DNA of 45,454 nt from an uncultured cyanobacterium. GTDB taxonomy: Bacteria > Cyanobacteriota > Cyanobacteriia > PCC-6307 > Cyanobiaceae. Each line of letters starts with the position of its first letter. Within the stretch, counting starts at the first letter, position 1. The stretch covers positions 1 to 45,454 of the forward strand of contig CAIQIA010000017.1 of assembly GCA_903871775.1 (NCBI GenBank), in the 5' to 3' direction. Positions 43,149-45,454 of the stretch are shown piece after piece. The notes below the pieces were generated by a model. The model was not told where the DNA came from and did no database searches. It was given only the letters and a program-made list of their open reading frames with translations. The translations under genes were made by a program, and so were the position numbers.

Positions 43149-43757
43149 ATGGCTGCTGACGCTGCCTTGCTGGCGATGCTGCTGCTGGCCTCTGCCTCAC
43201 CGGCCCGCCGTCGCCTGCTTGAGCAGGCCGGCATCCCCCATCGGGTGGAGGTGAGCGGCGTCGACGAGGAGGCCATCACCGCCGAAACCCCTGAACTGCT
43301 GGTGCAGCAGCTGGCCAGGGCCAAGGCCAGGGCCGTCGCCCGGCGGCTGCAGGGACCAGACCTGCCCTGCCAGGGGGTGCTGGGATGTGATTCGGTGCTG
43401 GTGTTCGAGGGTGAGATCTTCGGCAAGCCCAGGGATGCCTCCGAAGCCACGGCCCGCTGGCGGCGGATGGCCGGCGGCTCGGGCCTGCTGCACACCGGCC
43501 ACGCCCTGCTGGGGGGGGCCGAGGGGCAGCAGGAGCGGCTGGAGGTGGTGACCACCCGGGTCGTGTTCGCCGCCGTCGGCACTGCCGAGATCGAGCGGTA
43601 TGTGGCCAGCGGCGAACCGCTGCAGTGTGCGGGCGGATTCGCCCTCGAAGGTCGGGGTGGTCTGCTGGTGGAACGGATCGAGGGATGCGTGAGCAACGTC
43701 ATCGGCCTCAGCCTGCCGCTGCTGCGGCGCTGGCTCTGTGCAGAAACGGCAGACTGA
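43149..43757 (+). CDS. maf: Maf-like nucleoside triphosphate pyrophosphatase
   Basis: Encodes 202 residues from ATG 43149. Maf motifs are [18 protein letters not shown], the catalytic Asp in [18 protein letters not shown] and [32 protein letters not shown]. Maf proteins hydrolyse modified or excess NTPs to monophosphates and influence division in some bacteria. The much longer frame upstream lies opposite cobQ and the Npun_F0494-like gene and is not used. Confidence 0.93.
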
Positions 43758-43787
43758 CCCATCGCTCTTTCGTTGCACGATCACCGC

Positions 43788-43889
43788 ATGGGTTTCTGGA
43801 CCCCCTATGCCGACTGGATTTACACGGTGGTGAGCTGCACGCTGCTGCTGCTGGTGATCGTGGCCGTGCTGCGACCCGGCCAGCCATGA
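43788..43889 (+). CDS. 33-residue single-span membrane peptide
   Basis: ATG 43788 starts MGFWTPYADWIYTVVSC, which continues into a hydrophobic helix (LLLLVIVAVL) and ends RPGQP. The pattern of a short aromatic lumen-side start, one helix and a basic end recalls the small subunits of photosystems or cytochrome b6f, but it is not one I can name. It lies between maf and the psbC terminator, and its stop codon touches the terminator A run. Confidence 0.6.
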   Translation: MGFWTPYADWIYTVVSCTLLLLVIVAVLRPGQP

Positions 43890-43914
43890 AAAAACCCCCG
43901 CCGAAGCGGGGGTT
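43889..43914 (-). terminator. Intrinsic terminator of psbC
   Basis: Minus strand: CCCCCGC-TTCG-GCGGGGG forms a seven-bp GC stem with the stable C(UUCG)G tetraloop, followed by six T residues. It lies 24 bases past the psbC stop. On the plus strand only two T residues follow the stem, so it mainly serves psbC. Confidence 0.85.
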
Positions 43915-43938
43915 GAGGCGCTGACCGCAGCGATGACC

Positions 43939-45327
43939 TCAGTCGAGGTCGGGCATGGCCAGCACGGGCTCGGCCTGACGGTCGATGCCCTTCTCGAAAC
44001 CGGCGGCGGCGGCACGGGCGCGGCCCGCATGCCACAGGTGTCCCACCAGGAAGAAGAAGGCGAGCACGAACTGGGTCGAGGCCAGCCACTGGCGGATGTT
44101 GACGTAGTTCACCGAGTTGGGTTCGGTGATGATGCCGCCCACCGAGTTGATCGAAGCGTTGGGGGCGTGGGTCATGTACTCGGCAGCACGACGGACCTGC
44201 CAGGGCTGGATGTCGTTCTGGAGCTTGTCGAGGCTGAGGCCGTTGGGGCCCCGCAGGGGCTCCAGCCAGGGGCCGCGGAAATCCCAGAAGCGCATGGTCT
44301 CACCGCCGAAGATGATCTCGCCGGTGGGGGAACGCATCAGGTACTTGCCGAGGCCGGTGGGGCCCATGGCCGAACCGATGTTGGCGCCGAGGCGCTGGTC
44401 ACGGACCAGGAACGTGAAGCTCTGGGCCTGGGAAGCTTCAGCGTTGGTGGGACCGTAGAACTCGGAGGGGTAAGCGGTGTTGTTGAACCAGATGTAGGCC
44501 GAGGCGATGAAGCTCATGAAGCTGAGCGCGCCGAGGCTGTAGCTCAGGTAGGCCTCACCGTTCCAGATGAAGGCACGGCGCACCCAGCCGAAGGGCTTGG
44601 TGATGACGTGCCAGATGCCTCCGAAGATGCAGATCAGGCCGACCCAGATGTGGCCACCGATGATGTCCTCCATGGAGTTCACACCGATGATCCAGCCCTC
44701 GCCGCCGAAGGGGGCCCGGAAGAGGTACCCGAAGATCACACCGGGGTTGAGGGTGGGGTTGGTGATTAGGCGAACGTCGCCACCACCGGGTGCCCAGGTG
44801 TCATAAACGCCACCGAAGAACATGGCTTTGAACACCAGGAGCAGGGCGCCTACACCGAGAAGAATCAGGTGATAACCAATGATGTTGGTCATCTGATTCT
44901 TATCGCGCCAATCTTGGGAGAAGAACGAGGAGTAGTTCTCAAGGATTTCAGGACCACGCAGCGCGTGATACAGACCACCCAGGCCAAGCACGGCCGAGCT
45001 GATCAGGTGGAGCACGCCCACCACAAAGAAGGGATAGAGGTCGGTGACCTCCCCGCCAGGACCCACGCCGTAGCCAAGGGTGGCCACGTGGGGGAACAGG
45101 ATCAGGCCCTGCTCGTACATGGGCTTGTCGAAGGTGAAGTGGCTCACCTCGAACAGCATCATGGCGCCAGCCCAGAACACCATCAGACCGGCGTGGGCGA
45201 CGTGGGCTCCGAGCAGGCGACCGGAGAGATTGATCAGGCGAGCATTGCCTGACCACCAAGCGTAGCCAGTGGAGTCGAGGTCTTTACCCCCGACACTCAC
45301 CAGCCCGGAATTAAAGGGCGTTTCCAC
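43939..45327 (-). CDS. psbC: Photosystem II CP43 chlorophyll apoprotein
   Basis: Encodes 462 residues from GTG 45327 ([13 protein letters not shown]), the usual psbC start; the longer frame upstream lies inside psbD. CP43 is a core antenna with six membrane helices and chlorophyll-binding His residues ([47 protein letters not shown]). The large lumenal loop has [23 protein letters not shown] with the Glu and Arg that contact the oxygen-evolving Mn cluster. It overlaps psbD by 17 bases and ends before a strong terminator. Confidence 0.98.
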
Positions 45328-45454
45328 GGGGCAGTACCTCTTCAGGGAAGACGAAGTTTTCGTGAGGCTGGTCAGCCGGTGCCATCCAGGCACGCAGACC
45401 TTCGTTCAGAAGGATGTTCTTCGTGTAGAAGGTTTCGAACTCAGGGTCCTCAGC
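45311..45454 (-). CDS. psbD: Photosystem II D2 protein, 3' end (partial)
   Basis: The last 47 codons of D2 are visible, from [23 protein letters not shown] to the stop at 45311-45313; the sequence ends with the conserved [12 protein letters not shown]. The rest lies beyond the right edge. The reading frame overlaps the psbC GTG start by 17 bases, the classical psbD-psbC arrangement of cyanobacteria and plastids. Confidence 0.98.

Follow-up and report, generated by a model that had tools for sequence, protein, structure and literature searches.

Helper proteins of the FixQ/CcoQ and CydX types share a similar short, one-helix architecture. Genes for FixQ/CcoQ adjoin ccoN/ccoO/ccoP, and we know of no cbb3 oxidases in cyanobacteria. 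High-light-inducible proteins (Hlips) are single-helix accessory proteins that occur in multiple copies in islands, are carried by cyanophages, and possess a chlorophyll-binding motif of the ExNGR type. The sets of small photosynthetic subunits are listed in PMC5126843 and PMC10903887. PMC5126843 also describes Norf4, a one-helix protein of 31 residues that Synechocystis shares with many other cyanobacteria.

Membrane microproteins that escape annotation are a recognized blind spot, and the genomes studied here belong to very abundant phototrophs. We analyzed a 33-residue peptide gene in a 45,454-nucleotide stretch of picocyanobacterial DNA, referred to as a whole as the window. Searches of NCBIfam, Pfam, PHROG and PDB gave no significant match to the peptide, in agreement with the first-pass annotation, which had recognized in it none of the named small Psb, Psa or Pet proteins. 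No description of the family was found in the literature searched, a limited set of papers. The peptide represents a new family among the cyanobacterial small proteins, of the kind treated in PMC5126843 and PMC7760959.

The peptide gene and its neighbors

The gene (MGFWTPYADWIYTVVSCTLLLLVIVAVLRPGQP) is located on the plus strand at positions 43788-43889. Reading this interval confirmed the complete ATG-to-TGA frame between maf and psbC that had been reported, with 33 codons and a stop at 43887-43889. The start ATG at 43788 is retained in the copy of a second genome from the window's genus and in five relatives from g25 that have maf upstream. A longer frame opening with TTG at 43773 is absent from the same-genus copy. 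The window peptide is 94% identical to that copy, and its own genome yielded one copy of the gene only. AlphaFold, given 16 aligned family members, predicted one helix spanning residues 6-27 (43803-43868, plus strand; mean pLDDT 83.5). The earlier description of one helix with aromatic and basic flanks is borne out by this prediction and by the conserved coding character of the peptide. Judged from the frame, its conservation in the family, purifying selection and the structural model, the frame of 33 residues is a genuine gene under selection and encodes a membrane microprotein with one predicted helix.

The upstream gene maf (43176-43757, plus strand, assigned by frame reading) encodes 193 residues from a putative MLLLASASP start, and 30 bases separate its stop from the peptide start. 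In the five g25 relatives the stop codon of maf runs into the start codon of the peptide (TGATG in four, ATGA in one), so the two genes are probably cotranscribed there. The convergent neighbor psbC (43939-45393, minus strand) was delimited as the longest frame, with a putative start. A terminator-like hairpin was recognized by eye on the minus strand at 43889-43912, consisting of the hairpin proper at 43895-43912 and a T run at 43889-43894. Because the A run to the left of the hairpin is a T run on the minus strand, the hairpin reads as the psbC terminator, and the run abuts the peptide stop, as the first-pass annotation had stated. An Rfam scan of 43650-44000 detected no family at the gathering score.

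Selection and constrained residues

Equal rates of synonymous and non-synonymous change, the outcome that the first-pass annotation had set against its own proposal, were not observed. Among 86 distinct 27-codon cores, mean pS was 0.546 and mean pN was 0.177 (3655 pairs), giving a ratio of 0.32, and the entropies of the three codon positions were 0.60, 0.35 and 1.11, the third position being the most variable. This ratio and the variable third positions indicate a protein-coding frame under purifying selection. Between the window core and the same-genus copy, pS was 0.149 and pN 0.043.

The 88 places and 86 cores were drawn from the 30 best hits of an initial search, hand-picked hits and an exact DNA motif pattern, and were then filtered by motif; L034, which has an in-frame stop, was excluded from the core counts. 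The stretch from W4 to I11 shows little or no variation in the 86 cores, but since sampling was partly by that motif, the invariance of WTPYADWI is partly by construction, and the counts of genomic contexts given below come from non-random sampling. We took twenty more profile hits, most of them of low rank, without the motif filter. L250, in which the N-terminal part is not homologous, and L261, with an in-frame stop, were set aside, leaving 18 intact copies, five of them (L255-L259) on contigs already read under other names and 13 on new contigs.

Residues W4, A8, D9, I11, S16, V27 and L28 are unchanged in all 18 intact copies, and W4, A8, D9, I11 and S16 are unchanged across both sets. Of these, D9, I11 and S16 are inside the helix, with W4 and A8 by it. 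Variation at T5, P6, Y7 and W10 in the less typical, unfiltered copies suggests that the putative docking motif (see Discussion) is looser than the 86 cores indicate. Histidine does not occur in the 86 cores; the prophage copy of genome G204, which the motif filter missed, has one at position 7.

Distribution of the family

Genomes were searched with a profile of 16 members, using a listing threshold of E 0.1 and, as our own cut, E 1e-7 or better for a strong match. In 300 sampled genomes of the same taxonomic family, which we take to be phototrophs throughout, 111 matched at E ≤0.1, 104 strongly and 7 weakly. By our count, a strong match was present in 79 of the 197 family genomes with a completeness of 90% or more and a contamination of 5% or less. 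Strong matches were lacking in 196 of the 300 genomes and in 118 of the 197 more complete ones. The frame is thus retained well beyond the genome of the window, and the lack of conservation that had been named as an argument against the gene was not found. In a phylum sample of 292 genomes there were 16 strong matches, all of them, by our reading of the listing, among the 36 family members; none of the other 256 genomes gave a match at E 1e-7, the best one (E 0.011) containing two internal stops. With a degenerate DNA pattern that covers part of the motif, 53 stretches were retrieved from the genome_contigs collection, and the records are all but one titled cyanobacteria (Synechococcus, Cyanobium, Prochlorococcus, Vulcanococcus or unnamed, with WH7803 and RCC307 included). 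From these searches, the peptide family appears so far only in one picocyanobacterial family and some of its temperate phages.

Genomic contexts

At the 88 non-randomly sampled places, the peptide gene directly follows purB in 32, with fumC as the next gene in 26 of these. Another 12 places are near purB or rlmH, 14 follow a gene that we call microprotein B, one has fumC only, four have a phage major head or YkuD gene, and 18 have no assigned neighbor in this test. In three g34 genomes the peptide gene fills the purB-fumC gap of 103 bases, and at L159 its stop codon and the start codon of fumC share the sequence ATGA. The remaining seven places follow maf; psbC is directly convergent in six of them, and in L005 it comes some 0.9 kb later. 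Within the set of places read, a psbC neighborhood is restricted to the genus of the window and g25.

These counts do not support proximity to psbC as a clue to function, as maf is upstream in only 7 of 88 places whereas purB is directly upstream in 32. A partnership with psbC or maf was rejected because so few places have this context. A check at the maf-psbC junction had been proposed: the peptide gene is conserved in the family, and the direct junction itself is seen in 6 of 88 places. The position of the peptide beside psbC looks incidental, and caution is needed when function is to be deduced from this neighbor.

Microprotein B (METQSLLTLLTPFLVFGALFVVLLLVWDR and variants) has 29-30 residues and ends at or just before the peptide start in loci of the genus g5 type (L043, L044, L050, L058, L059, L063-L066, L082, L089, L091, L096, L109, L121 and L130). 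Several members have an isoleucine codon where others have ATG. Microprotein B was considered as an obligate partner and rejected: strong matches are confined to g5 (6 of 151 genomes), so it is no general partner. In a g30 genome, L142 (G119:C56:1902-1961) matches microprotein B weakly (E 1.8e-4) and contains one in-frame TGA; it is perhaps a relic. The record L089 (PACT01000035.1), titled Crocinitomicaceae, has a peptide of the g5 type, microprotein B and a neighbor with a DnaJ-like end (by eye), and is probably a misbinned picocyanobacterial contig.

Loss, decay and multiplication

We tested 19 purB-fumC gaps without an intact peptide gene for remains; four of these genomes keep a copy elsewhere, intact or broken. 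In two of the three g30 genomes (L163 and L165) the gap contains a frameshifted relic, with DNA-level z values of 13.6 and 23.1, while in the third (L162) the z value of 2.5 was within its shuffles. A shuffle test at the protein level did not bring out a relic in g30 (30, with shuffles reaching up to 38), and nothing clear was found in the remaining 17 gaps. In the freshwater-type genera without the peptide gene, as far as they were read, fumC was not found beside purB, which makes this locus uninformative there.

Multiplication was seen in one complete g52 genome, which has four peptide copies, two with in-frame stops, within blocks of shared flanking DNA. The gene is intact in one g32 genome and interrupted by an in-frame stop in a second. 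At L031-L034, L040, L047 and L129 (g52 and g32) the peptide is found in mosaic repeat blocks with common start and end points near the gene. From this arrangement, the g52 and g32 peptide genes look as if they had been moved as a cassette together with the stretch after the stop. In one genome of genus g10, two same-strand copies are situated about 1 kb apart (L020/L041, G286:C34).

Phage and prophage copies

A scan of viral contigs with the peptide profile gave two matching records. In the 8.8 kb record, the peptide is encoded between the genes for scaffold (PHROG 206) and major head (PHROG 212). In the 33.7 kb record, genes for portal, large terminase, major head, scaffold and primase/helicase occur along with integrase-like ones, and the peptide is again encoded between scaffold and major head. 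A related prophage-like module was found by blastn in four g45 genomes (G105, G194, G204 and G222); in G194 and G204 the prophage-like copy is the sole copy reported. L037, one of the 18 places without an assigned neighbor, is phage-like by DNA similarity. A g45 group of temperate phage or prophage-like elements with the peptide in the head module comprises L157 and L158 (virus record G557), L134, L146, L149, L152 and L153.

Six phage-type copies gave a pooled pN/pS of 0.30. The g45 cores L035 and L038, which have no phage module around them, are identical in protein sequence to the phage-type cores L134 and L036, so exchange between host and phage in g45 looks recent. The commonest context at the places read is the chromosomal order purB-peptide-fumC, and a decayed g30 relic is found there, which suggests that the phages took the gene from their hosts.

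Discussion

We tentatively favor an accessory role, in which the peptide is a single-pass membrane microprotein of picocyanobacteria that would dock on a conserved membrane complex. A gene that is patchy, present at several sites, phage-borne and decaying is unlikely to encode a core subunit. On the positive-inside rule, the N terminus would be outside and the basic C terminus inside. Residues D9 and S16 are seven positions apart and would thus share a helix face, and this face may dock into a conserved integral membrane complex, stabilizing or tuning it. Hosts would retain the peptide for particular conditions, and phages would carry it to adjust the host membrane during infection or lysogeny. 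The partner would most likely belong to the energy-converting complexes of the thylakoid or plasma membrane, or be the quality-control protease of such a complex; this link to energy conversion is drawn by analogy with the phage-borne Hlips. Carriage by phages would be just as compatible with a role in lysis or exclusion.

The first-pass annotation had likened the peptide to small photosynthetic subunits. Size and shape indeed fit a small protein that is a constitutive part of photosystem I or II, cytochrome b6f or NDH-1, psbC is adjacent in the window, and the peptide is present in 12 of 23 phycobilisome genera versus 3 of 36 without (Fisher p 0.0004, uncorrected for kinship). Here, a phycobilisome genus is one with at least three PF00502 matches in its first listed genome, which holds for 23 of 59 genera. 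The association may reflect shared lineage history only, and a strict phycobilisome partnership was rejected, since g32, g40 and g52 have the peptide but only two PF00502 matches. Strong matches are lacking in 11 of the 23 phycobilisome genera and in 33 of the 36 others, direct psbC adjacency is seen in 6 of 88 places, copies are broken in g30, g32 and g52, no solved structure matches, and histidine is absent from the cores, although the G204 copy has one. What stands of the likeness is a conserved, coding peptide with a single predicted helix; absence in many relatives, broken copies and carriage by temperate phages are not the behavior of a core photosynthetic subunit. A constitutive subunit of a photosynthetic complex is therefore very unlikely, and on the sequence data a core photosystem or oxidase subunit in general appears unlikely, while an accessory role in a photosynthetic complex is possible. 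A helper of a terminal oxidase, resembling FixQ/CcoQ or CydX, seems distinctly unlikely. The sole Pfam hint is to FixQ (PF05545, residues 6-31), a weak profile similarity of 12.9 bits (E 0.11) that is well under the gathering cut-off of 29 bits. No FixQ match at E ≤10 was obtained with five other members of the family, and a search of the window's own genome with PF05545 gave three matches at E ≤10, none above the cut-off. COX1 was detected in 101 of 111 genomes, and in all 68 high-quality ones, with or without the peptide. Occurrence with cydA, expected of a CydX-type helper, was not seen either: CydA was found in 10 of 151 genomes, of which G062 alone has the peptide, and its cydA is in two pieces.

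The phage copies raise the alternative of a lysis, antiholin or superinfection-exclusion peptide that was domesticated by hosts. At L134, L146 and L157 the peptide gene is tail to tail with a gene for a putative membrane protein of 90-144 residues, and a YkuD-domain gene comes next at two of the three. However, this neighbor matches no PHROG or Pfam family, the holin label being our own reading, and the chromosomal purB-peptide-fumC order that prevails at the places read, with the decayed g30 relic at the same spot, suggests transfer from hosts to phages; we consider a domesticated phage peptide of this kind unlikely. For a type I toxin peptide, the small size, hydrophobicity, patchiness and occasional multiple copies would be fitting, but the filled purB-fumC gap in the g34 genomes and the overlap with fumC at L159 leave little room for an antisense regulator, and conservation at the residue level is strong across the family, so that we regard a toxin as highly improbable. 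Hardly credible is a reading as a leader peptide, or as a frame that overlies a structured RNA by chance: the frame is short and is upstream of fumC in 27 of 88 places, yet in the window it is followed directly by a convergent terminator, amino acids are constrained while third positions are free, and no Rfam match exceeded the gathering score.

Turning back to the accessory microprotein that we favor, the peptide has one inherited-looking locus in many marine Synechococcus, decays or multiplies in relatives and rides on temperate phages. Together, these properties could make it a handle on a membrane process that both picocyanobacteria and their phages adjust.

In comparison with described systems, the peptide resembles PsbT, PsbM, PsbX, PsaM, PetL and PetN in being cyanobacterial, about 30-40 residues long and built on one helix. 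It differs from the small subunits of photosystem I, photosystem II and cytochrome b6f in having no sequence match to them and in being restricted to one family in our samples, patchy, multi-site and phage-borne. We attribute a resemblance of YADW to helix C of bacteriorhodopsin (best PDB E 0.67) to chance, since the family profile matched no PDB chain at E ≤10. FixQ/CcoQ genes have a different setting: the peptide gene is next to maf and psbC here, and its assigned neighbors elsewhere are purB, fumC, rlmH, maf, microprotein B and phage genes, none of them ccoN, ccoO or ccoP. Norf4, as described in PMC5126843, is similar in length, single helix and strong conservation. According to that paper, Norf4 is lacking in alpha-cyanobacteria, whereas the peptide was found only there; Norf4 was not recovered when sought near GAPDH genes.

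Compared with the Hlips, no ExNGR-type motif was seen by eye in the translations, the histidine-free cores differ as well, and Pfam scans of family members found no Hlip family. A more speculative proposal, possible but doubtful, is one of phage-borne auxiliary microproteins: a host-derived one-helix protein, encoded in the head module of temperate phages that infect freshwater picocyanobacteria, would retune an energy-converting membrane complex of the host through its conserved Asp-Ser face. If true, the Hlips would be joined by the peptide as a second mobile system of one-helix proteins.
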